A stretch of DNA of 37,121 bases. Origin: Butyrivibrio sp. (GTDB lineage: Bacteria > Bacillota > Clostridia > Lachnospirales > Lachnospiraceae). Each line of letters begins with the position of its first letter. Within the stretch, counting starts at the first letter, position 1. The stretch lies in contig NZ_JAGBLU010000114.1 of assembly GCF_017635265.1 (NCBI RefSeq), positions 1-37,121 of the forward strand. Reading direction: 5' to 3'. The notes under the pieces are model-generated. The model had not been told where the DNA came from. It saw only the letters and a list, made by a program, of their open reading frames with translations, and did no database searches. Of this stretch, positions 4,216 to 25,867 are shown piece after piece. The translations under genes were made by a program, and so were the position numbers.

Positions 4216-5451
4216 CTAAAGTCCCAGCATACCATTTAGATTCTGGCCAACCTCCTGCTTTTTCTCATCGCTATAATCAGCATAGATATCCATGGTAGTC
4301 GAGAAATCTGAGTGTCCCATAACACTCTGTATAAACTTGGGATTGGCTCCTGCTTCGCAGAGCCTCGTACAAAATGTATGTCTAAGCACATGAGCAGTAA
4401 AATGTGGAAGAAGGAAAGGCTCACGACCTTCAGCCTCTGCTTCTGCTGTTTCCTTCTTATTGTAAGAGATGATGACGTTCTTAATAGCCTTATTCACTGC
4501 GCTGGGTGTAATCATCTTACGCTCAGCTGTAGAAAAAACAAAATCTTTATATCCATCGATCTCTTCTTCACAAAACCCTATACACTTCTGGATCTGATAT
4601 TCCTGCAGAAATGCATCAAACACTTCCTGGACCATCGGAATAGTGCGCCTACCAGCATCAGTCTTCGTATCAGTGATACGGCGCTCACAATGCCCTTTCT
4701 CATCGGGTCTGTTGTTAAACTCATGATCAACATGAATCATACGATTCTTAAAATCCAAATTGCTCCAACAGATTGATACTGCCTCTCCTATACGCATTCC
4801 TGTCCCCAACAGAACCGTGATGATCGGAACCCAGCCTTCAAATTCACGACTCTCACGGAGATGCTTCATGAAAGCTTTCTGTTCGTTGATACTCAGCGCC
4901 TCACGCTTTGTCGTATCAGATGGAGTGCCTTTCACATCCTTCTTAAGCTCCGCCATAATATCATCCGTCGGGTTGGTCCTGATAAGACCATCCCTGACAG
5001 CAACCTTAAATGCCGGGTGAAGCAGAGTGTGTACCCTGTCAACTGTAGATATCTTTACATGCCTCTCATCCAGGAGATAGTAGTAATAGGTTTTTATATC
5101 AGTATACTTTACATTTACTATCTTTTTCTTTCCAAAAGGTGTGTCTTTGATATAAGTTTTGTAGGTATTTACATATCCGCCTTTTGTAGTAAGCTTAAGA
5201 TTTCGCTTCTGATTGAGGTAATTCTCGATCATGTGATTTATTTCAATTGTTGCCGCCATGTGCGGATCGAGCCCATCAAAGTAATCGCGCTGAATACCTT
5301 TTTGTTTTTGGCGTAACTCAACTAATGTCTTGGCATAGATGAAATGTCTTTTGCCAAGCCTGTCTACATACGCATATACATATCTCCCATCGGAGCGCTG
5401 ATACTCACCTTTTTGCAATGCGTATCCTTTTTTATCTTTTCTTGATGCCAT
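4216..5451 (-). CDS. int: Tyrosine recombinase (integrase)
   Basis: This 411-aa phage/ICE-type integrase resembles the Tn916 group. An arm-binding N-terminal domain (about 1-60) is followed by a SAM-like core-binding domain (about 65-165) and a catalytic domain. The catalytic set is complete: Arg220 (GTGMRIGEA), a probable Lys263, His354 and Arg357 (HVLRHTF), His380 (MGHSD) and the nucleophile Tyr390 (MDIYADY). It would integrate and excise an element. The excisionase-like gene and a chain of regulators follow on its 5' side. A CCATTCTATGGAATC segment 125 bp upstream recurs at 154-168 and could mark recombination sites, though it could also be chance. Confidence 0.92.
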   Translation of the reverse strand: MASRKDKKGYALQKGEYQRSDGRYVYAYVDRLGKRHFIYAKTLVELRQKQKGIQRDYFDGLDPHMAATIEINHMIENYLNQKRNLKLTTKGGYVNTYKTYIKDTPFGKKKIVNVKYTDIKTYYYYLLDERHVKISTVDRVHTLLHPAFKVAVRDGLIRTNPTDDIMAELKKDVKGTPSDTTKREALSINEQKAFMKHLRESREFEGWVPIITVLLGTGMRIGEAVSICWSNLDFKNRMIHVDHEFNNRPDEKGHCERRITDTKTDAGRRTIPMVQEVFDAFLQEYQIQKCIGFCEEEIDGYKDFVFSTAERKMITPSAVNKAIKNVIISYNKKETAEAEAEGREPFLLPHFTAHVLRHTFCTRLCEAGANPKFIQSVMGHSDFSTTMDIYADYSDEKKQEVGQNLNGMLGL

Positions 5452-18318: not shown

Positions 18319-18978
18319 TCAGATTACGATAAAAGTTGTTGCATTAGAAACCTTTATCTGAGTATCCAGCTCGGTCAGAAGAGTATCTCTCTTTTCCCTA
18401 AGCATCGCTGTCTTCTTCTGTACGTCAAGCGGATCCACAAGTTCAGTGGTATTCTCTTTCACATAAGCTTCTACCACCTCAAGAGGCTTCTCATCCTTTA
18501 CTTTTGTATCCTTACCCAGAATAGAAAGTCTCATACTCTCTGCAGTAGACTGAAGCTGTTTATTCTTAAGCTCAGCAAGATTAACTCTCTTATTGAAATC
18601 TGATTCCATCTTTTCCTGAAGAGCAGCCTCAAAATCTGCTTCTCCATCATATGATCCAACACCGCGCAGTCTGCTTCTAAGAGAGATAGCTCCCGCAACG
18701 GTGAATTCACCATATGTGGTATTAATCTTAGTATTGGCATTGGATGCCACAATAGCAGCATCAATTCTCTGAAATCTGTCAATCAGATCCTGGATCTGCT
18801 GAAATGCGCTCTCTGCATCCTTGGCAAATTCCTCTCTTGATACCCTTGCATCGAGCACCTTCTCTTCATTAGGTTTGATTGTATCTACAAAGTTTGCCTT
18901 TGAAATCTTGTCATTGATTTTCTTTACAAGCAGGTCTCTTTCATCAAGAGCCTGAGTTACAAGCATTTTATCTGCCAT
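18319..18978 (-). CDS. DIP1984/septicolysin-like coiled-coil protein
   Basis: This 219-aa, largely helical protein has the layout of the DIP1984 family: an N-terminal heptad region, a central FQRIDAAIVASNANTKI segment matching the family's IN-x-TN-A motif, and a C-terminal helix ending in a short strand (ATTFIVI). A second family member lies at 31598-32113. The function of the family is unknown. AAGGAGG precedes the ATG. It starts 30 bp after the YkgJ-family gene and shares its promoter, shared-box promoter 4. Family placement rests on motif resemblance only. Confidence 0.55.
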   Translation of the reverse strand: MADKMLVTQALDERDLLVKKINDKISKANFVDTIKPNEEKVLDARVSREEFAKDAESAFQQIQDLIDRFQRIDAAIVASNANTKINTTYGEFTVAGAISLRSRLRGVGSYDGEADFEAALQEKMESDFNKRVNLAELKNKQLQSTAESMRLSILGKDTKVKDEKPLEVVEAYVKENTTELVDPLDVQKKTAMLREKRDTLLTELDTQIKVSNATTFIVI

Positions 18979-19762: not shown

Positions 19763-19806
19763 ATTGTATCTGTGAATTCCAAGCATCTCAATTAACGCGT
19801 GGTTGA
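19763..19806 (-). promoter_or_regulatory. Shared-box promoter 4 (YkgJ and DIP1984-like genes)
   Basis: Minus-strand TCAACCACGCGTTAAT (19806-19791), 22 bp, then TACAAT (19768-19763), with TTGAGA at -35. The box overlaps the last codons and stop of the phosphoesterase gene, so it gives an internal promoter within the gene cluster. Confidence 0.85.
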
Positions 19807-20394
19807 TAAAATAGGAGCCGGATTCTTCTCCATTTTCTTGGCCTTTTTATCTATGGCATGATCAATCGTTACTCTGTGAATACTGTCGATATCTGACAGA
19901 ATGCCATCCTTTATAAGCTTCCCGAGATTAACAGGAGTATAGTCACAGACATTTGCAGCAAGGTTCAGATGCTTGCAGCCATCCTTGTATGCCTCAATGT
20001 TATTATGGTCATGACCATGGATGTTCAGACACCATGAGAGTCCATAGACCGGTTCATGAGATAAAAGAATCTTTTCTGCAATAAAGAGAGGTCCTGCATA
20101 TATCTCGTCGAAGCAGTCAGTATACTCTCCCCGCCTGTCGTGATTGCCAAGAAGAAGAATCTTTTTCCTAACTTTGAGTTCCTTAATATACTCTGGTCTA
20201 CCTACATCTCCAAGGCAGACGAAGGTATCATTTTTCATGATGGTCTTGTTGATAATATCTATCTGCTCCCTCGGAGTAATCCACCCAGGATCCATAAATT
20301 TACAGTCATCGTCATCAAAGTGCATATCCGAAAGTATATAAACTGAGCCTTTTTCGGACCAATGCCTGAAAGGTTCATAAAGTGTTGATATCAT
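19792..20394 (-). CDS. Metallophosphoesterase of the RNA-repair operon
   Basis: The 200-aa calcineurin-like enzyme has SDMHFDDD (D23, H25), LGDVGRPEY (GD 62-63), LLGNHDRR (GNHD 83-86), LSHEP and HGHDH, the complete two-metal set. GGGAGG precedes the ATG. It starts 18 bp after the RNA ligase stop, so the two are co-transcribed. Ligases of this kind need 3'-OH and 5'-phosphate ends, so a phosphoesterase that heals 2',3'-cyclic or 3'-phosphate ends would be a fitting third partner. The motifs are seen; the end-healing role is inferred from the operon. Confidence 0.8.
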   Translation of the reverse strand: MISTLYEPFRHWSEKGSVYILSDMHFDDDDCKFMDPGWITPREQIDIINKTIMKNDTFVCLGDVGRPEYIKELKVRKKILLLGNHDRRGEYTDCFDEIYAGPLFIAEKILLSHEPVYGLSWCLNIHGHDHNNIEAYKDGCKHLNLAANVCDYTPVNLGKLIKDGILSDIDSIHRVTIDHAIDKKAKKMEKNPAPILSTTR

Positions 20395-20412: not shown

Positions 20413-21459
20413 TCAGTCGTCATTCTTGATCAGGTATTTGTTGTTTATTACCTTCATGGAAAGCGGGCCGCTAAGTGTGTATGAATGTACAGGCTCTTTT
20501 GGCCTTATAACAATTCCTTCCCGGACAGTTCCGTTGTATCCGATACCATCAGCCCTTGTTAAAAGAGCCTGCTCATCCGGATACTTCGTAAGAAGATCTT
20601 CTCCCTCTTCCTCGACAGGAACCATCTTGCAACCAACATACTCGCATATAGCCCTGAGCATATCCAGGTTAGTTCTCTTGTCATTTACTCTTGCTGTAAA
20701 CACGAACCATTCAGGGGTCTTTAACTTAAGCCTGTTCTTCTGGATTCCTTCTCCACACCATTCTCCCTGAAGCACAATGCTCTGAATTTCGTTCTCCTTG
20801 GCATATTCCTCCATCTTCTCAGGGATTCCCTTAGACTTAACGTACTCAACAAATGAAGACTTACCATCATCCTTGTAGGTGAAGTTATGCCCCGTGTAGG
20901 AAACCTCATCATCTCTTACTCCAACAGAATGACTTGATCCATCCAGCTTGGTCGTGATGTAGTATGGAAGCCCTGCAAACTCCTTAAGAAGTTCTGGTGC
21001 TGACTGGATTCTGGTTTCATCAGTTTTAGGAATATATCCTGGCCTGTCTCCGATTATTGTTCCTGATGATCCAACCCTTTCAGGCATCTCCCACTCGCGA
21101 ACTCCAAGGATTTCTGTCACATCCATCCCCTCGGTTAGTTCTATTCCGTTCAGCTTGGGAAGTTTATCAATTCCAAGGCATAATCCCTGGGATATCTCTC
21201 CTCTGAACTTCATGGTCTTAAGCTTGAAGCCTTCTCCCATATATTCATTATTCTTGTAAGAGTTCTTTCTAAGAAACTCAAATTCCTCGCATATTGGCAG
21301 GAAAGAGTCTATCTCAAAATAGACCACCAAGTCCCCAACATGAAACTCATTCTTTCCTCCAACACACTTCCATCCAAGTACCTGAACAAGCTCAAGCCTG
21401 TCTGCGTCAGATATTGGAAATACTCCATTTACTCTCTGTATTGATGCTAACTTTCTCAT
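20413..21459 (-). CDS. ATP-dependent RNA ligase, DraRnl (Rnl5) type
   Basis: This 348-aa protein has the order known for the Deinococcus DraRnl family: an N-terminal OB-fold-like module (about 1-130), then the nucleotidyltransferase domain. Motif I is KLDGSS with Lys171 as AMP acceptor; a glutamate-containing motif (VLQGEWCGEG) follows; motif IV is EGIVIRP; motif V is SMKVINNKYL at the end. DraRnl enzymes seal 3'-OH/5'-phosphate nicks in duplexes with RNA at the 3' side, such as a cut tRNA stem or loop held by base pairing. The start MRKLASIQ at 21459 is chosen because GAGGGG lies before it; it begins 13 bp after the Thg1-like stop. Confidence 0.88.
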   Translation of the reverse strand: MRKLASIQRVNGVFPISDADRLELVQVLGWKCVGGKNEFHVGDLVVYFEIDSFLPICEEFEFLRKNSYKNNEYMGEGFKLKTMKFRGEISQGLCLGIDKLPKLNGIELTEGMDVTEILGVREWEMPERVGSSGTIIGDRPGYIPKTDETRIQSAPELLKEFAGLPYYITTKLDGSSHSVGVRDDEVSYTGHNFTYKDDGKSSFVEYVKSKGIPEKMEEYAKENEIQSIVLQGEWCGEGIQKNRLKLKTPEWFVFTARVNDKRTNLDMLRAICEYVGCKMVPVEEEGEDLLTKYPDEQALLTRADGIGYNGTVREGIVIRPKEPVHSYTLSGPLSMKVINNKYLIKNDD

Positions 21460-21472
21460 CTTTCTATACCCC

Positions 21473-22225
21473 TCAAGTAAATCTCCGAATAAGCCTGCCG
21501 TATTCATCTCCGAATGGTAGCTCATAATCTACGTGTATCCTGTTACGTGTCGTGATCCTTGTTTCGCCTGTAAGTGGATTAAGCCCTTCTTTTTTATATT
21601 CTTCCATCCACATACCTACACCGCGTTTCTGCCATGAGGGCAGCTTATCATAGTTGATTCCTCTACTGAAAAGGAGTTCATTTTTATATGCCACTCCTTT
21701 GCCTTTTAACTCCGAAGTTGCTTTATGAACTGATGCGCCTTCCTTTCGCAGCATCCAGTAGCAATGTGAATTAAGAGCATTTCTGTTTGCATCTTCCTGT
21801 CTCCATCGAAAGTAATCTTCCACTCTTTCTGCATTCGGAAGCGGTACCATTCTACAGTCAAATGTCGCTGCCATGCCAAGCTCAAGAGAAAAGACCGCGC
21901 TGGCTTCTGCTGCAAGCGTCGAGTTATACTTACGCACCTTCCTTCCAAAGGTATCCTCATCAGCCGCAAACAATAACGAAATCTCATCACTTTCTGTATA
22001 GGCGTAAACCACTCTGAATCCGCAATCCATTAGCTCCTTTGTGGTCTTTACCATCATATCCCTAAACTTTTCATCAAAAGGAGCTTCAAAATGACAAACC
22101 TCCTTTGTAAGCCTTGTAAATCCCCTCCCATCAAGTCTCGCTACCATGAAAATATCTGGAAGAATAACCTGATCTAAAGACTGCTCATAAACACGCATCT
22201 TTGAATCCATCTCATCAAAACGCAT
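21473..22225 (-). CDS. Thg1-like protein (3'-5' nucleotidyltransferase)
   Basis: The 250-aa protein is a Thg1 superfamily member. It keeps the metal-binding RLDGRGFTRL (Asp32) and YTESDEISLLF (Asp80, Glu81). At the position of the HINNLYNT motif of eukaryotic Thg1 it reads NALNSHCYWMLRK, so it belongs with the Thg1-like proteins (TLPs). TLPs add nucleotides in the 3'-5' direction using a template strand and can rebuild 5'-truncated tRNAs. No tRNA-His gene lies in the neighbouring array, arguing for repair rather than G-1 addition. GGGAG precedes the ATG. It heads the TLP-ligase-phosphoesterase operon behind shared-box promoter 5 and a structured leader. Confidence 0.9.
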   Translation of the reverse strand: MRFDEMDSKMRVYEQSLDQVILPDIFMVARLDGRGFTRLTKEVCHFEAPFDEKFRDMMVKTTKELMDCGFRVVYAYTESDEISLLFAADEDTFGRKVRKYNSTLAAEASAVFSLELGMAATFDCRMVPLPNAERVEDYFRWRQEDANRNALNSHCYWMLRKEGASVHKATSELKGKGVAYKNELLFSRGINYDKLPSWQKRGVGMWMEEYKKEGLNPLTGETRITTRNRIHVDYELPFGDEYGRLIRRFT

Positions 22226-22403: not shown

Positions 22404-22411
22404 AAGCCTGG

Positions 22412-22533
22412 TCGCGGGGACAGGTCGCAGGCATCCGGGGGATGCCACGCTTGCGACTCCGAGCACTGCGCAGGGAACCTGCTATCGCTGAGGTTATGAG
22501 CCTCGCATGGTAATTCCGTTCCACTTCCCCGCA
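22412..22533 (-). tRNA. tRNA(CAT) with 46-nt T-loop insertion
   Basis: Acceptor TGCGGGG/CCCCGCG, D-stem GTGG/CCAT, anticodon loop CTCATAA (Met, or Ile if C34 becomes lysidine), T-stem GCAGG/CCTGT. Discriminator A is followed by an encoded CCA (22411-22409). The T-loop spans 53 nt instead of 7 (22425-22477): after TTC comes a structured insert with GTCGCA/TGCGAC enclosing GGCATCC-CCC-GGATGCC. The insert start, CCTGC, also complements the T-stem 5' strand. Pair 27-43 is C-A. Confidence 0.82.
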
Positions 22534-22540
22534 ATGAAAA

Positions 22541-22612
22541 CGACTCTACAGAGAATTGAACTCTGATCTCCGGATAGACAGTCCGGCATAATAGCCTTTA
22601 TACCATAGAGTC
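22541..22612 (-). tRNA. tRNA-Asp(GTC)
   Basis: Acceptor GACTCTA/TAGAGTC, anticodon stem CCGGA/TCCGG with loop CTGTCTA, and a normal T-loop TTCAATT. Discriminator G fits Asp. Confidence 0.92.
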
Positions 22613-22618
22613 ATATAA

Positions 22619-22690
22619 AGCCGGATGAAGGATGTGCGCCCTCCTCTGATGGTTACAAATCACCTGCATCGCTATCTATGCTTATCCGGC
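22619..22690 (-). tRNA. tRNA-Thr(TGT) with non-canonical elbow
   Basis: Acceptor GCCGGAT/ATCCGGC and D-stem GCAT/ATGC are perfect; the anticodon loop TTTGTAA gives TGT. The T-stem GAGGG/CCTTC closes the loop CGCACAT, with no TTC, and the D-loop AGATAGCG lacks GG. The usual G18-U55 and G19-C56 contacts cannot form. Discriminator T is also odd for Thr. It is either a specialised or a decaying tRNA. Confidence 0.65.
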
Positions 22691-22695
22691 AGGTA

Positions 22696-22816
22696 TTCCG
22701 ATAACAGGGTGCTGGATGTCCGGGGGACATCCGTTTAGCACGGCCGAGCTACGCACAGGCGAACCTGTGGCTTCTTCCTTGTAAGGGAAGCACTCTCCCA
22801 GCTGAGTTATATCGTA
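22696..22816 (-). tRNA. tRNA-Val(TAC) with 48-nt T-loop insertion
   Basis: Acceptor TACGATA/TATCGGA (A2-G71 mismatch), D-stem ACTC/GAGT, anticodon stem CTTCC/GGAAG with loop CTTACAA, T-stem ACAGG/CCTGT. The T-loop is 55 nt (22709-22763). Its insert has the same plan as in the CAT, Trp and Asn genes but different sequence: outer GTGCT/AGCAC and inner GGATGTCC/GGACATCC. CCTGT also occurs at the insert start, making a direct repeat with the T-stem 3' strand. Confidence 0.82.
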
Positions 22817-22817
22817 G

Positions 22818-22890
22818 TGGACCGCACGGGAATCGAACCCGCCATCTCTGGATTGCAAAACCAGTGTCACCCCATTGCGACTTCCGGCCC
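22818..22890 (-). tRNA. tRNA-Ala(TGC)
   Basis: Acceptor GGGCCGG/GCGGTCC contains the G3-U70 pair that marks Ala tRNAs; 7-66 is G-G. The loop TTTGCAA gives TGC. T-stem GCGGG/CCCGT with the normal loop TTCGATT. Discriminator A. Confidence 0.85.
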
Positions 22891-22980
22891 AAGCTGCAGA
22901 AGACCGTGCCTGTGGCCTCCTGCTTTATTAAGTTATTTTACGTTCAGAAGTAAGGAAGTGCCTGCTTTCTCTCTTCTGAA

Positions 22981-23052
22981 AGCTCCATGTCGGTGCTGCC
23001 CCGACTTCCTTAGCTTGGAAAGCTAATACACTAGCTGATGTGCGAATGGAGC
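22981..23052 (-). tRNA. tRNA-Gly(TCC) with non-canonical elbow
   Basis: Perfect acceptor GCTCCAT/ATGGAGC, D-stem GCAC/GTGT, anticodon stem TTAGC/GCTAA with loop TTTCCAA, T-stem GTCGG/CCGAC. The T-loop is GGCAGCA, lacking TTC, and the D-loop ATCAGCTA lacks GG. Discriminator T is normal for bacterial Gly. All stems are intact, so this looks selected rather than decayed. Confidence 0.75.
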
Positions 23053-23056
23053 TGAT

Positions 23057-23126
23057 CGGGCAACCGAGAATCGAACTCGGATCAGATGCTTATAAGACAC
23101 CGGCTCTCACCATTGAACTATTGCCC
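23057..23126 (-). tRNA. tRNA-Ile(TAT)
   Basis: Acceptor GGGCAAT/GTTGCCC, anticodon stem GGTGT/GCATC with loop CTTATAA, T-stem CCGAG/CTCGG with loop TTCGATT. The D-arm is short. TAT is rarer than the usual CAT (lysidine) solution for AUA codons in bacteria. Confidence 0.85.
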
Positions 23127-23144
23127 AATATCAATTTGGGTATT

Positions 23145-23174
23145 AAAAAAGGACCCATCCTCTTGGACAGATCC
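23145..23174 (-). terminator. Terminator after the 53-aa ORF
   Basis: Minus-strand GGATCTGTCC-AAGA-GGATGGGTCC is a 10-bp stem (three G-T pairs) followed by TTTTTT. Confidence 0.8.
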
Positions 23175-23214
23175 TAAAATCCTACAGTATATTCCGGTGT
23201 GCCTGTTTACCAGC

Positions 23215-23376
23215 CTAACATCGGACTTTACCATCTGTCCTAAAATATTTTTCTATACCAAAAGCACGGCCTGATGTTCCTAATACGGGCGCATCAATAA
23301 CAAACGTATCGACTGTGAAGTCATACGCTTTTGTCGCGGTTATGCCTATAAGATTAGAAATCATCATCTGTCTCAT
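23215..23376 (-). CDS. Small ORF (53 aa) inside the tRNA array
   Basis: The ORF starts MRQMMISNLIGITA and ends FGIEKYFRTDGKVRC. It has no recognised family. AAGGTTAAGG lies upstream but somewhat far from the ATG. It is bracketed by two minus-strand terminators (23420-23485 and 23145-23174), so it forms its own small transcription unit between tRNA-Met and tRNA-Ile. It may be a real small protein or a remnant; no promoter is obvious. Confidence 0.4.
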   Translation of the reverse strand: MRQMMISNLIGITATKAYDFTVDTFVIDAPVLGTSGRAFGIEKYFRTDGKVRC

Positions 23377-23419
23377 TGAAAGCTTTTTACCTTAACCTTT
23401 CTTAATATTTCTGATAAAC

Positions 23420-23485
23420 AAAAAAGGAAGCGCTCGCATATTTATGTTGATGTTTGCATCAAAATAAATAGGACAGGCACTTCCT
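23420..23485 (-). terminator. Long terminator after tRNA-Met
   Basis: Outer AGGAAG/CTTCCT, then ATTTAT/ATAAAT and TTGATG/CATCAA around a TTTG loop. On the minus strand CTTCC is followed by TTTTTTG. It ends the tRNA segment above it. Confidence 0.8.
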
Positions 23486-23544
23486 ATGTACTTACATTAA
23501 CATCATACCGTATATTTGTAAAGCACTTTTTTAAAAAAACAAAA

Positions 23545-23618
23545 TACCTGAAATTGGGATCGAACCAATGGCCTTCTGCGTATGAAACAGACGCTCTTAC
23601 CAACTGAGCTATTCAGGT
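23545..23618 (-). tRNA. tRNA-Met(CAT), elongator-like
   Basis: Acceptor ACCTGAA/TTCAGGT, D-arm TAGCTCAGTTGGTAAGAGC, anticodon loop TTCATAC, T-stem ATTGG/CCAAT with loop TTCGATC. It has canonical features and no insertion. Confidence 0.93.
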
Positions 23619-23625
23619 AAAAAGC

Positions 23626-23743
23626 GGATACAGAGGGGTCGCAGACATCCAGGGGATGTCACGCTTGCGACTCCGAGCTTGCGAAGGGAACCCACAACCT
23701 CCCGGTTAACAGCCGGGCGCTCTGCCGATTGAGCTACAACAGC
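23626..23743 (-). tRNA. tRNA-Asn(GTT) with T-loop insertion and unmatched 3' end
   Basis: The 5' part is a good tRNA-Asn: GCTGTTG, D-arm GCTC/GAGC, anticodon stem CCCGG/CCGGG with loop CTGTTAA, and T-stem strand GTGGG followed by TTC. The same class of insert follows (GTCGCA/TGCGAC, GACATCC/GGATGTC). The sequence after the insert (CCCCT-CTGTATC) pairs poorly with GTGGG and GCTGTTG: at least three of twelve positions mismatch and several others are wobble. It is a pseudogene, or a tRNA needing editing or another 3' half. The 3' limit is uncertain. Confidence 0.6.
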
Positions 23744-23747
23744 TTAG

Positions 23748-23820
23748 TGCTGCCTATGGGGATTGAACCCATGACCTACGGTTTAAAAGACCGTTGCTCT
23801 CCCAACTGAGCTAAGACAGC
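23748..23820 (-). tRNA. tRNA-Lys(TTT)
   Basis: Acceptor GCTGTCT/AGGCAGC, anticodon stem ACGGT/ACCGT with loop CTTTTAA, T-stem ATGGG/CCCAT with loop TTCAATC, discriminator A. Confidence 0.94.
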
Positions 23821-23824
23821 TAAG

Positions 23825-23897
23825 TGGACTCGGACGATATCGAACCGCCTACGCGGAGATCTTCACTCTCCCGCTCTACCATTTGAGCTACAAGTCC
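23825..23897 (-). tRNA. tRNA-Phe(GAA)
   Basis: Acceptor GGACTTG/CGAGTCC, anticodon stem GGAGA/TCTCC with loop GTGAAGA, T-stem GGCGG/TCGTC (two wobbles) with loop TTCGATA. Confidence 0.9.
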
Positions 23898-23901
23898 ATA
23901 G

Positions 23902-23973
23902 AGACAAGGGCAGGATTCGAACCCACGATGGCGGAGTTGCAGTCCGCTGCCTTTCCAGCTTGGCTACCCTGTC
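23902..23973 (-). tRNA. tRNA-Cys(GCA)
   Basis: Acceptor GACAGGG/CCTTGTC, anticodon stem GCGGA/TCCGC with loop CTGCAAC, T-loop TTCGAAT, discriminator T as expected for Cys. Confidence 0.93.
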
Positions 23974-23977
23974 TTAA

Positions 23978-24048
23978 CTACGGCACTTGGAATCGAACCA
24001 AGATTACTGGAACCAAAATCCTGTGGGCTACCATTACCCCATACCGCA
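23978..24048 (-). tRNA. tRNA-Gln(TTG)
   Basis: Acceptor TGCGGTA/TGCCGTA with the U1-A72 pair typical of Gln; loop TTTTGGT gives TTG; T-stem CTTGG/CCAAG with loop TTCGATT; discriminator G. Pair 28-42 is A-A. Confidence 0.88.
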
Positions 24049-24058
24049 TGGTGCAGTC

Positions 24059-24280
24059 TTACTCGACTGCTATTATTCTTTCAATAGGAACTTCAAGATA
24101 TACAGAAAGTGCTACAATCCTATCAATGCTTGGAAGAACCTCTCCTCTTATGTATCTATACACAAGAGAAGTACTCGTTCCCAGGTATTCTGAAACCTCT
24201 GTAACTGTATGTCCGCTTTCTCTGATCAAATCTCTTATATGTATTCCTGTTTCTTCAATATCAATAACTGGATAATCCAT
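24059..24280 (-). CDS. Small XRE regulator within the tRNA array
   Basis: The 73-aa product (from MDYPVIDIEETGIHIRDLI) is a compact helix-turn-helix (HTVTEVSEYLGTSTSLVYRY, then GEVLPSIDRIVALSVYLEV) of the same small family as the genes at 25868, 30914 and 32219. AAAGGAG precedes the ATG at 24280, preferred to the upstream in-frame codons. It lies between tRNA-Gln and a terminator, so it probably shares a transcript with the tRNAs below it. Confidence 0.78.
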   Translation of the reverse strand: MDYPVIDIEETGIHIRDLIRESGHTVTEVSEYLGTSTSLVYRYIRGEVLPSIDRIVALSVYLEVPIERIIAVE

Positions 24281-24304
24281 TTTTCTAATCTCCTTTTTGC
24301 GCAC

Positions 24305-24338
24305 TAAAAAACCACTTAACCTCGCAAGCTAAGTGGTT
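24305..24338 (-). terminator. Terminator upstream of the array XRE gene
   Basis: Minus-strand AACCACTTA and TAAGTGGTT around an 11-nt loop, followed by TTTTAG. Confidence 0.8.
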
Positions 24339-24384
24339 ACAGATCATATCGACCTCGTGTATTTTTAATGCTCCGGATCATCCA

Positions 24385-24513
24385 TTATTCACTGGATCCT
24401 GGACCACTTTCCACCAACTTGCAATTTACATAACTAACAAAGCACTTCTGATTTTTGCAGAACTGCATAAACTGTTTGTTATTAAATTGCTTGCTGATAG
24501 TTACGTAGTACAT
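24385..24513 (-). CDS. Small ORF (42 aa) inside the tRNA array
   Basis: The ORF begins MYYVTISKQFNNKQFMQF and ends VNCKLVESGPGSSE. AAGAGG lies about 12 nt before the ATG. Nothing similar comes to mind. Its stop lies in a hairpin (ATCCA/TGGAT), and the terminator at 24305-24338 follows. Treat as a candidate only. Confidence 0.35.
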   Translation of the reverse strand: MYYVTISKQFNNKQFMQFCKNQKCFVSYVNCKLVESGPGSSE

Positions 24514-24605
24514 CTTAAAAATCTACCTCTTAACTTTCCGCTGACCTTTGGCAGCTCCATATCTTTGTTACACTTGTATTATCGTCCTGCCGGACCAGTT
24601 TGTAT

Positions 24606-24628
24606 AGTGTCATCGAATGACACTTTTT
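24606..24628 (+). terminator. Plus-strand terminator-like hairpin
   Basis: AGTGTCAT-CGA-ATGACACT followed by TTTT on the plus strand. No plus-strand gene precedes it. On the minus strand the same stem resembles a tRNA T-arm (loop ATTCGAT) without the rest of a cloverleaf, so it may be a tRNA remnant. Confidence 0.4.
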
Positions 24629-24648
24629 CATTAGCTATAAGGCTATAG

Positions 24649-24721
24649 TACAGACATCCTGACTCGAACAGGAAATACCTCCGTATCAGAGAGGCGTGAT
24701 AACCAATTTCACCATATCTGC
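24649..24721 (-). tRNA. tRNA-Ile(GAT)
   Basis: Acceptor GCAGATA/TGTCTGT (G1-U72), anticodon stem CCTCT/GGAGG with loop CTGATAC, T-stem TCCTG/CAGGA with loop TTCGAGT, discriminator A. Confidence 0.9.
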
Positions 24722-24725
24722 AAAG

Positions 24726-24798
24726 TATCCCCTGCAGGATTCGGACCCGCGTATGTGAGATTAGAAATCTCATGCCTTTTCCACTTGGCGAAGGGGAC
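24726..24798 (-). tRNA. tRNA-Arg(TCT)
   Basis: Acceptor GTCCCCT/AGGGGAT (G1-U72), anticodon stem TGAGA/TCTCA with loop TTTCTAA, T-stem GCGGG/CCTGC. The T-loop TCCGAAT has C in place of the universal T55. Confidence 0.9.
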
Positions 24799-24803
24799 AT
24801 AAA

Positions 24804-24875
24804 TGTTCCTCAGGCGATTCGAACGCCTAATTCCTGGTTCGTAGCCAGACAGTTTTTCCATTAGCTTAGAGGAAC
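24804..24875 (-). tRNA. tRNA-Arg(ACG)
   Basis: Acceptor GTTCCTC/GAGGAAC, anticodon stem TCTGG/CCAGG with loop CTACGAA (A34, normally made inosine by TadA), T-stem AGGCG/CGCCT with loop TTCGAAT. Confidence 0.92.
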
Positions 24876-24879
24876 ATGG

Positions 24880-24964
24880 CGCCGTGAACAGGGATCGAAC
24901 CTGTCTTCCCGTGAAGGAAACCGCTGATTAGCAATCAGGTGCCTTACCACTCAGCCACCACGGC
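24880..24964 (-). tRNA. tRNA-Ser(GCT)
   Basis: Class II tRNA: acceptor GCCGTGG/TCACGGC, anticodon loop TTGCTAA, long variable arm built on TTTCC/GGGAA, T-loop TTCGATC, discriminator G as in Ser. Confidence 0.92.
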
Positions 24965-24969
24965 TAAAG

Positions 24970-25054
24970 CGCTGCATGAAGGAGTCGAACCTTCTCTCCC
25001 GTAAAGGAGCCAGCGGTTTTCAAGACCGCGGCAATCCCGTTCTGCCAATGCAGC
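24970..25054 (-). tRNA. tRNA-Ser(TGA)
   Basis: Class II tRNA: acceptor GCTGCAT/ATGCAGC, anticodon stem GCGGT/ACCGC with loop CTTGAAA, variable arm GCTCC/GGGAG, T-loop TTCGACT, discriminator G. Confidence 0.93.
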
Positions 25055-25059
25055 TTGAG

Positions 25060-25177
25060 CATAACCCGTAGGGTCGCAGGCATCCAGGGGATGCCACGCT
25101 TGCGACTCCGAGCATTGCGCAGGGAACCCACACAAACTGTTTTGGAGACAGTTATGCTACCATTACATCAGGGCTAT
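25060..25177 (-). tRNA. tRNA-Trp(CCA) with 47-nt T-loop insertion
   Basis: Acceptor ATAGCCC/GGGTTAT, D-stem ATGT/GCAT with AATGGTA loop, anticodon stem ACTGT/ACAGT with loop CTCCAAA, T-stem GTGGG/CCTAC, discriminator G as in bacterial Trp. The T-loop is 54 nt (25073-25126). After TTC comes the insert with GTCGCA/TGCGAC enclosing GGCATCC-CCT-GGATGCC and the conserved GCTCGG. All tRNA stems close correctly across the insert. Confidence 0.87.
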
Positions 25178-25236
25178 ATTATTCTTTACACCTCTCTTTC
25201 CTCGTTATTTTTGTCGGTTATTCATGTATAAAAATC

Positions 25237-25253
25237 TTCTGCCTCTGGCAGAA
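25237..25253 (-). terminator. Terminator after tRNA-Leu(CAA)
   Basis: Minus-strand TTCTGCC-AGA-GGCAGAA followed by GATTTTTA. Confidence 0.75.
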
Positions 25254-25254
25254 A

Positions 25255-25329
25255 TACAGGCGGTGGAATTCGAATCCACACATAAACGAGGTTTGAGCTC
25301 GCTTCCTCTGCCAATTGGGATACACCTGT
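25255..25329 (-). tRNA. tRNA-Leu(CAA), short variable arm
   Basis: Acceptor ACAGGTG/CGCCTGT, anticodon stem GCGAG/CTCGT with loop CTCAAAC, T-stem GTGGA/TCCAC with loop TTCGAAT, discriminator A. The variable region is only about 6 nt, unlike the class II Leu tRNAs beside it. Confidence 0.87.
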
Positions 25330-25333
25330 GCAG

Positions 25334-25416
25334 TGCAGGATATCAGATTCGAACTGATACGGGCTAAGCCCAACTGGTCCTTAGCCAATTGCGTCTGCCA
25401 CTTCCGCCAATCCTGC
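25334..25416 (-). tRNA. tRNA-Leu(AAG)
   Basis: Class II tRNA: acceptor GCAGGAT/ATCCTGC, anticodon stem ATTGG/CCAGT with loop CTAAGGA, variable arm GGGC/GCCC, T-loop TTCGAAT, discriminator A. A34 in a Leu tRNA is unusual for bacteria. Confidence 0.9.
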
Positions 25417-25419
25417 AAG

Positions 25420-25498
25420 TACGCCCTAAGAGACTCGAACTCTTACGCTTTCGCAACAGATTCTAAGTCTGCCGTGTCTACCATTTCACCAAGGGCAC
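25420..25498 (-). tRNA. tRNA-Leu(TAG)
   Basis: Acceptor GTGCCCT/AGGGCGT (wobbles at 1-72 and 2-71), anticodon stem GCAGA/TCTGT with loop CTTAGAA, variable arm TGC-GAAA-GCG, T-stem AAGAG/CTCTT, discriminator A. Confidence 0.9.
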
Positions 25499-25501
25499 AG
25501 A

Positions 25502-25585
25502 TGTGACCGGCGAGACTCGAACTCGCAACCAACAATAGGAACAGAGACTTAAGCTCTGCGTGTATACCAGTTCCACCACGGTCAC
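25502..25585 (-). tRNA. tRNA-Leu(TAA)
   Basis: Class II tRNA: acceptor GTGACCG/CGGTCAC, anticodon stem CAGAG/CTCTG with loop CTTAAGT, T-stem GCGAG/CTCGC, discriminator A. Its first bases overlap the stop codon of the 17-aa ORF upstream. Confidence 0.92.
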
Positions 25586-25635
25586 AGATAATTCAGTTGT
25601 AAGCTCCTAAGTCGGAGTCGCAATAATCGTGTCAT
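25582..25635 (-). CDS. 17-aa Leu/Arg-rich mini-ORF before the tRNA-Leu block
   Basis: AGGAGAAAAGAC places a good ribosome site before the ATG. The peptide, MTRLLRLRLRSLQLNYL, has 7 Leu and 4 Arg in 17 residues, and the Leu residues use TTA, TTG, CTC, CTT and CTG. It ends inside the first bases of tRNA-Leu(TAA), followed by three more Leu tRNAs. It may act as a leader peptide sensing Leu or Arg tRNA supply. This is an untested idea; such a short ORF could be chance. Confidence 0.4.
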   Translation of the reverse strand: MTRLLRLRLRSLQLNYL

Positions 25636-25661
25636 GTCTTTTCTCCTATCAAATAACTAAG

Positions 25662-25743
25662 TGGGCAAGATGGGTGTCGAGCCCATTACCTCCGAAGAGA
25701 ACGGATTTACAGTCCGTCGCGTTTGCCGATTCGCTACTTGCCC
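25662..25743 (-). tRNA. tRNA-Tyr(GTA)
   Basis: Class II tRNA: acceptor GGGCAAG/CTTGCCC, anticodon stem ACGGA/TCCGT with loop CTGTAAA, variable arm built on CTC/GAG, T-stem ATGGG/CCCAT. The T-loop CTCGACA has C at position 54. Confidence 0.92.
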
Positions 25744-25746
25744 TGA

Positions 25747-25820
25747 TAATCCCCGCCGGAGTTGAACCGAGCATTTCAGCCTTGAAAGGGCTGTGTCCTT
25801 GCCATTTAGACGAGGGGACC
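25747..25820 (-). tRNA. tRNA-Glu(TTC)
   Basis: Acceptor GGTCCCC/GGGGATT (wobbles at 1-72 and 2-71), anticodon stem CAGCC/GGCTG with loop CTTTCAA, T-loop TTCAACT with a C-C mismatch at 49-65. It is the first tRNA of the array, 47 bp after the XRE gene. Confidence 0.9.
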
Positions 25821-25867
25821 ATATGCGGAGCTGTTTTTACTCACAGCTCCTTTATTCTATTTTTCTT

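Follow-up and report, generated by a model that had tools for sequence, protein, structure and literature searches.

Short hairpin inserts split tRNA genes in Butyrivibrio arrays and are probably mobile DNA elements

A 37,121-nucleotide stretch of Butyrivibrio DNA (the window; contig C91 of a 4.15 Mb genome in 151 contigs, rated 88% complete) carries an array of transfer RNA (tRNA) genes, four of which are split in the T-loop by short GC-rich hairpins. The analysis indicates that these inserts are probably short mobile hairpin DNA elements, moving or once moving, which prefer tRNA loops and reside in mobile arrays of Butyrivibrio and related rumen bacteria. The observed basis is sixfold: insert-free orthologues exist for the same site, the inserts form a family with one geometry, they occur in both orientations, target nucleotides are lost, copies lie outside tRNA genes, and chimeric genes are joined at inserts. 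An earlier note on this DNA had offered an intron, a T-arm extension or a decoy as readings; these find partial support, and a mobile DNA element is now favoured. The array, the four split genes and their inserts are as follows.

22411..25821, minus strand: tRNA array with the four split genes; ARAGORN finds 18 intact tRNAs in this stretch
22412..22533, minus strand: tRNA with CAT anticodon (CAT1 type), T-loop split; acceptor TGCGGGG/CCCCGCG 7/7, T-stem GCAGG/CCTGT 5/5; insert-free orthologue in locus L048
22425..22474, minus strand: hairpin insert of the CAT tRNA, type T1, 50 nucleotides; found by covariance model and descriptor
22697..22816, minus strand: tRNA-Val (TAC), T-loop split; acceptor 6/7, T-stem 5/5; insert-free orthologue in L048 with T-loop TTCAATC
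22709..22760, minus strand: hairpin insert of tRNA-Val, divergent, 52 nucleotides; outer helix of 5 base pairs, bulge AAAC, inner helix of 8 base pairs
23626..23743, minus strand: tRNA-Asn (GTT), T-loop split, acceptor not closing; acceptor 3/7, T-stem 4/5; orthologues with matching acceptor in L034, L038 and L120
23638..23687, minus strand: hairpin insert of tRNA-Asn, type T1, 50 nucleotides; found by covariance model and descriptor
25061..25177, minus strand: tRNA-Trp (CCA), T-loop split; acceptor 7/7 and T-stem 5/5 across the insert
25073..25123, minus strand: hairpin insert of tRNA-Trp, type T1, 51 nucleotides; found by covariance model and descriptor

All four split genes were missed by ARAGORN in the window. 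That CAT, Val, Asn and Trp carry a structured T-loop insertion, as first noticed from the letters of the DNA, is borne out by a covariance model (R1), a geometric descriptor and the empty sites of other arrays; the length first given, 46-49 nucleotides, holds as the net gain after the loss of four loop nucleotides, the insert itself measuring 50-52. Specifically, each insert lies between U54U55C56 and C61 and replaces loop nucleotides 57-60, and its GC content is 0.62-0.70 against 0.41 for the window. The outer and inner helices, the bulge and the conserved GCTCGG are present as described. R1 was built from the CAT, Asn and Trp inserts of the window, which score 87-94 bits by construction, while Val, outside the model, scores 26; within the window the descriptor matches the four inserts and nothing else. 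The claim that the stems close across the insert holds for CAT (7+5), Val (6+5) and Trp (7+5) out of 7+5 pairs, with 3+4 in Asn. The 5' acceptor strand of this Asn gene is that of a Lys tRNA, and the gene is thus recombinant. A TGT-anticodon tRNA in the same array (window 22619-22690) has a T-loop without TTC (GGAGG GCGCACAT CCTTC), and a similar gene occurs in two other genomes (L043 and L048).

Empty counterparts of the split genes define the target. Insert-free orthologues in the same gene order are present in other arrays of the genus and have ordinary 7-nucleotide T-loops, which read TTCAAGT or TTCAAAT in Asn, TTCAATC in Val, TTCGACT in CAT1, TTCGAGT in Gln-CTG and TTCAAGC in Lys, with the same interruption point. 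Because these loops show the full sequence at the interrupted place, nucleotides 57-60 have been replaced and not just displaced. Across the loci, T1 or the Val variant begins after TTC or ATC in eight tRNA types (CAT1, Met, Asn, Lys-TTT, Lys-CTT, Gln-CTG, Trp and Val). What would be expected of a mobile hairpin is thereby found, namely a short GC-rich hairpin that is present at some orthologous sites and absent from others. The Gln gene of L048 has the T-stem GTAGG/CCTAC where the insert-free gene of L036 has GCAGG/CCTGC, a paired difference across the insert that may predate the insertion. Two Met (CAT) genes without insert (L116:10980 and L172:6688-6736) have the unusual T-loop ATCATGG, which could be an ancestral state or the result of a partial deletion of a T1 insert.

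Further inserts occupy the loops of other tRNA genes. T2 inserts (about 27-34 nucleotides) lie in the T-loops of Ala-TGC, Leu-TAG, Leu-TAA, Glu-CTC and Ala-GGC in the split-gene alignment, S inserts (about 25-30 nucleotides) in the anticodon loop of Ser-TGA, D inserts in the D-loops of Trp and Glu-CTC, and T3 inserts in the T-loops of Leu-TAG, Asn and Ser-GCT. The anticodon loop of Gln-CTG holds a different insert of about 50 nucleotides with a 7-base-pair hairpin and a 3-nucleotide loop (L016:9796-9926, L039:12130-12310, L052:4760-4960), and in L039 and L052 the same gene also carries a T1 insert. A descriptor of the shared geometry (outer helix of 5-6 base pairs, one-sided bulge of 4-5 nucleotides, inner helix of 7-8 base pairs, tip TCC-NNN-GGA) was run on 479,886 bases from 40 or so chosen loci. 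Its 46 hits come down to 42 places once two reverse readings of Asn copies and two contigs counted twice (L168 being L048, and L170 being L041) are removed, and these places contain 12 distinct inner helices; a control tip, CCT-NNN-AGG, gave one hit in the same bases. Twenty-nine of the 42 places are T-loops on the tRNA strand (four in chimeric genes), eight are D-loops, all opposite to the tRNA strand, two are anticodon arms (opposite strand in L116, same strand in L171), and three lie beside tRNA-Arg in genome G013.

Orientation and context both bear on what moves. The R1 search itself returned an antisense D-loop match that had not been sought, on the plus strand within a minus-strand Glu gene (L016 11280-11337, 27 bits, E 4.4e-5), and in a pattern search the S sequence of Ser-TGA matches the T2 insert of Leu-TAG in G068 on the opposite strand with 3 mismatches. 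Occurrence in both orientations points to a DNA element rather than an RNA intron, which has no reason to work both ways. The AGACTA/TAGTCC motifs of the small inserts, which resemble group I P7, were likewise traced to one element read in its two orientations. Outside tRNA genes, the S sequence stands inside two Clostridiales-1 RNA matches in G080 (57.4 and 52.5 against a gathering score of 48), just before the last hairpin; T2-like sequences occur in a conserved stretch of three genomes and in a conserved stretch of two others; places outside tRNAs are also recorded at G077, G085 and G012:C71; and a T1-like copy is intergenic in G008. Copies are found in several contexts and in both orientations, as a mobile hairpin should be. 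Clostridiales-1 RNA matches were also recorded at L126:1152-1246 (below the gathering score), L139:1374-1563 and L078:1370-1559, one of them beside a tRNA array. L130, L132 and L140, from three genomes, are almost the same sequence and contain several imperfect palindromes (GCACTA...AAGTGC); in two of them the 3' end of a tRNA comes directly before a terminator, and the stretch resembles the terminus of an integrated element.

Across the genus, R1 has 27 matches (E up to 0.001) in 15 of 79 genomes; in an earlier genome set the insert was present in 7 of 61 genomes, with none of the 24 outside the genus among the carriers. Twenty-three of the matches fall within the T-loop of a recognisable tRNA gene (a chimeric one in three cases), and the other four in a tRNA fragment (G062), an anticodon stem (G070), a T-arm fragment beside tRNA-Arg (G013) and an intergenic position (G008). 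G062 is a two-contig genome, so the insert is not an assembly artefact. The exact insert pattern was found in 15 contigs of named genomes, comprising 11 from Butyrivibrio (two from one strain), three from Oribacterium and one from Lachnospiraceae NK4A144, while the viral_contigs set gave no exact match to two insert patterns. A viral or plasmid origin of the insert was set aside after BLAST of the CAT gene against phages and plasmids returned only insert-free parts of tRNAs or a 30-nucleotide stretch at E 0.3. A literature search, judged chiefly by titles, turned up no paper describing inserts of this kind in tRNAs of bacteria, and the phrase 'insertion in the T-loop' combined with tRNA gave 0 papers.

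Insertion and recombination have damaged some of the genes. Anticodon nucleotides are lost in the Ser-TGA and Gln-CTG genes that carry anticodon-loop inserts, the 3' side of the anticodon stem is lost in the Leu gene of L116, and in the Ser-GCT gene of L171 one copy replaces GCC of the anticodon stem and a second insert sits in the T-loop. In four chimeras (L035, L039, L041 and L052), which close 8-9 of 12 pairs, the T1 insert is the junction between a 5' half from another tRNA and a Met 3' half; in a fifth (L058), Trp is joined to Glu at a D insert. Such chimeras show that the arrays recombine, and together with the recombinant Asn of the window they fit a reading in which these are ordinary decayed tRNA pseudogenes, with a repeat of single origin that homologous recombination carried from one T-arm to another. 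We consider that account highly unlikely: the T-stem and acceptor on either side of the insert remain specific to each tRNA type, which would demand conversion tracts ending within a few bases, and several unrelated insert families share a single geometry. The small insert is also present in the chromosomal Ala-GGC gene at two loci (L131 and L136). Insert-free 5' halves of this gene that end at or before the T-stem are scattered over several genomes (L153-L157, L159 and L161); as these truncated halves are the neighbouring matches, the chromosomal gene proves little about function and was dropped as such proof.

Most copies nevertheless keep the fold of a tRNA. Closure was scored in T1 or Val genes as acceptor plus T-stem pairs across the insert, with a maximum of 12. 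At least 11 pairs close in 21 of 25 non-chimeric copies; of 480 combinations with halves exchanged between tRNA types, 4 reach this level. With two gene starts corrected (Val 11 and Trp 12 in the window) the count becomes 23 of 25, leaving as low closers the Asn of G002 (10/12) and the Asn of the window (7/12 when correctly placed). The genus-wide covariance search, by which the earlier note proposed to tell functional inserts from decay, therefore places them not only in decayed pseudogenes, since most non-chimeric copies keep their stems, four chimeras and one broken anticodon stem excepted. Closed stems also favour a permanent functional extension, in which the hairpin would stay in the mature tRNA and lengthen its T-arm, for use in translation or, against enzymes that cut tRNAs, as a decoy or marker. 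In line with this, the 5' segment of T1 is matched to the tRNA type in different species (Asn has CTTCGCAAG, CAT1 has CTGCGCAGTG and most Met copies have CTCGCAGAG), and T3 copies retain TTCGA, so that a U54-A58 pair could form. We regard an extension as rather unlikely, since insert-free orthologues are common, inserts run in both orientations, some anticodons are lost, chimeras are frequent, and a long elbow should, from general knowledge, hinder the ribosome.

The hairpin structure itself is maintained, as the earlier note had held. In an alignment of 20 rows (A7), 93.8% of helix cells are paired, and in the inner helix three pairs are changed on both sides, in five cells (five cells were reached in 0 of 500 shuffles, three pairs in 8 of 500); further pair types are not above shuffles (500/500). 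The outer helix of A7 has no both-sided changes and is imperfect in several rows; it is altered in Val only, in a shifted register. Compensatory change, first claimed for both helices, thus stands for the inner one and not for the outer, and the wider family shows it better: replacement of whole helices between families is stronger evidence for a hairpin than the changes in A7. DNA palindromes can self-correct, so helix replacement gives no proof of an RNA role, and paired changes in a DNA hairpin are possible without selection on RNA. The conclusion that the RNA structure is under selection consequently does not follow, given also the two orientations and the copies outside tRNAs. An alternative T-arm fold, in which the 5' strand of the T-stem pairs with the start of the insert, was correctly seen in the window (5/5 pairs in CAT, Trp and Val, 4/5 in Asn). 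By eye it reaches about 3/5 in Lys and Met copies elsewhere; it is not general and was rejected as a switch.

Three genes stand in a row next to the array.

21473..22225, minus strand: Thg1 (tRNA-His guanylyltransferase) family protein adjoining the array (PF04446, E 2.8e-31; in 10 of 79 genus genomes)
20413..21525, minus strand: RNA ligase adjoining the array (PF09414, E 1.6e-15; PF21189, E 5.7e-33; in 14 of 79 genus genomes)
19792..20394, minus strand: calcineurin-like metallophosphoesterase downstream of the ligase (PF00149, E 3e-05; common to other array contigs)

Thg1 and the RNA ligase are linked to the array; a role on the inserts would be hypothetical. Elsewhere in the window, a match to a phage tail fibre family (18319-18978, phrog_1491, E 1.5e-35) and an integrase at 4216-5451 hint at phage-related DNA. 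The neighbouring genes bring back the first alternative, a new kind of intron that is cut from the pre-tRNA, with the ends joined, perhaps by the ligase, after Thg1 or the phosphoesterase has prepared them. The adjoining genes, the association of ligase and Thg1 with T1 across the genus and the closure of stems in native as compared with swapped halves all speak for it. Precise excision would nonetheless leave a 3-nucleotide T-loop (TTC) in T1 tRNAs and restore no standard tRNA, and it would remove anticodon nucleotides in Ser-TGA and Gln-CTG; family members run in both orientations and one copy breaks an anticodon stem. Five of the 15 T1-positive genomes have no ligase match (four of these five are rated 99-100% complete) and eight have no Thg1 match, while among the matches that of G019 is a fragment and that of G070 contains a stop. 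Ligase or Thg1 as a required partner was dropped on these absences, despite the association. Moreover, a second array, on contig C19 (L015 6063-11017), with 30 tRNAs and relatives of the RNA ligase and phosphoesterase, gave no T1 match in the R1 search. An intron of this kind accordingly seems very improbable. A mixed account, in which hairpins of RNA or DNA are exchanged into the loops of array tRNAs, the pre-tRNAs are processed or used, and ligase, Thg1 and phosphoesterase repair the ends, appears quite unlikely.

Several observations weigh against the mobile-element reading that we prefer. The RNA ligase is present in 10 of 15 T1 carriers and in 4 of 64 non-carriers (Fisher p 1.6e-6), as a processing model predicts, and Thg1 in 7 of 15 and 3 of 64 (p 2e-4); plain co-residence on one element or array also explains both associations. 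Closed stems in most non-chimeric copies exceed what would be expected of dead genes, unless the insertions are recent. T-loop copies all lie on the tRNA strand, unlike those of a random inserter, which suggests a directional target. The descriptor loci were chosen because they bear inserts and hence form a biased sample. The T2/S pattern gave 20 rows against 24 for its reversed control in the same 79 genomes, which is chance by count, so that only contexts distinguish the small family and the searches show contexts, not enrichment; four of 15 S matches (L068, L069, L072 and L075, with 3 mismatches each) look like chance matches. Finally, no transposase or other enzyme for the inserts was found, which is the main gap, and three insert motifs were absent from the flanks of 20 Y1-transposase loci taken from matches in 37 genomes.

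If the inserts are mobile elements, a sequence of events can be proposed. A family of GC-rich hairpins of about 27-55 nucleotides would move at the DNA level into tRNA-gene loops, where a trans-acting enzyme that handles hairpin DNA might insert the element into the single-stranded loop of the tRNA-gene hairpin. The insert may then be retained in the transcript, by analogy with fungal mitochondrial double-hairpin elements as treated in the relevant parts of PMC2800124. The product would be a tRNA with an overgrown T-arm, inactive or merely tolerated, and identical copies could subsequently act as short homologies for deletions within the array. Such a family would explain why gene finders miss some tRNA genes and why mobile arrays contain chimeric tRNAs. 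The carriers include several named isolates of Butyrivibrio and Oribacterium, among them Butyrivibrio sp. MC2021 and B. proteoclasticus P18, which offer a culturable system for studying both movement and the fate of interrupted tRNAs. To our knowledge, bacterial tRNA genes are normally taken as free of short structured inserts; should the pre-tRNAs prove to be processed or used, these would be the first functional bacterial tRNAs with short interruptions that are not of group I.

Known systems share some of these features. Group I introns have a conserved catalytic core of some 200 nucleotides or more; those of bacterial tRNAs likewise interrupt tRNA genes, and the present inserts, at 50-52 nucleotides, are far too short. 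That they are not group I introns, as already supposed, agrees with a lack of Rfam intron matches in the window and in L015/L016 at E up to 1. Known RNA families were rejected more broadly, as Rfam on the window, L015/L016 and selected loci returned tRNA and Clostridiales-1 (two G080 loci) and left the inserts unmatched. Repetitive extragenic palindromic (REP) and other IS200/IS605-type hairpins are bulged bacterial sequences that Y1 transposases can mobilise in trans. The inserts resemble them as bulged hairpins in bacterial DNA and differ in number, the T1 model at E up to 5 yielding no more than 2-5 matches in each of 8 genomes; an origin from IS200/IS605 or REP-associated tyrosine transposase (RAYT) elements was rejected because the hairpin does not lie at Y1_Tnp gene flanks (20 loci, three motifs). 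Insertion at integron attC sites keeps the target nucleotides and uses G^TT junctions; such a site was excluded, since 1-5 target nucleotides are lost and the 3' junction lacks TT. The tRNA array units of bacteria, plasmids and phages are reportedly dense tRNA clusters on mobile DNA, a likeness that the present arrays share.

Archaeal tRNA introns at non-canonical positions, for which disruption by a mobile element has been proposed, are described in the parts of PMC3293823 that bear on them. According to those parts, bulge-helix-bulge introns are likewise short and interrupt the D-, anticodon or T-loop, and one tRNA may hold two of them. Unlike them, the present inserts run in both orientations, and the split genes lack loop nucleotides that a mature tRNA needs; a protein-spliced tRNA intron was rejected on this ground, as removal does not restore a standard tRNA when nucleotides 57-60 or the anticodon are gone from the flanks. 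The closest parallels are found in mitochondria, where, in fungi and sponges, double-hairpin elements, GC clusters and repetitive hairpin-forming elements have been described (in the pertinent sections of PMC2800124 and PMC4478555) and where those of fungi are reported, within the same sections, as not removed from transcripts. Like the inserts, mitochondrial hairpin elements are, as characterised there, short, GC-rich, hairpin-forming, dispersed and insertion-polymorphic, and some lie inside RNA genes. The comparison is one of features, and the present family differs in being bacterial, concentrated in tRNA loops and marked by a defined one-sided bulge. A hairpin family that repeatedly lands in tRNA loops would constitute a bacterial counterpart of the mitochondrial hairpin elements.

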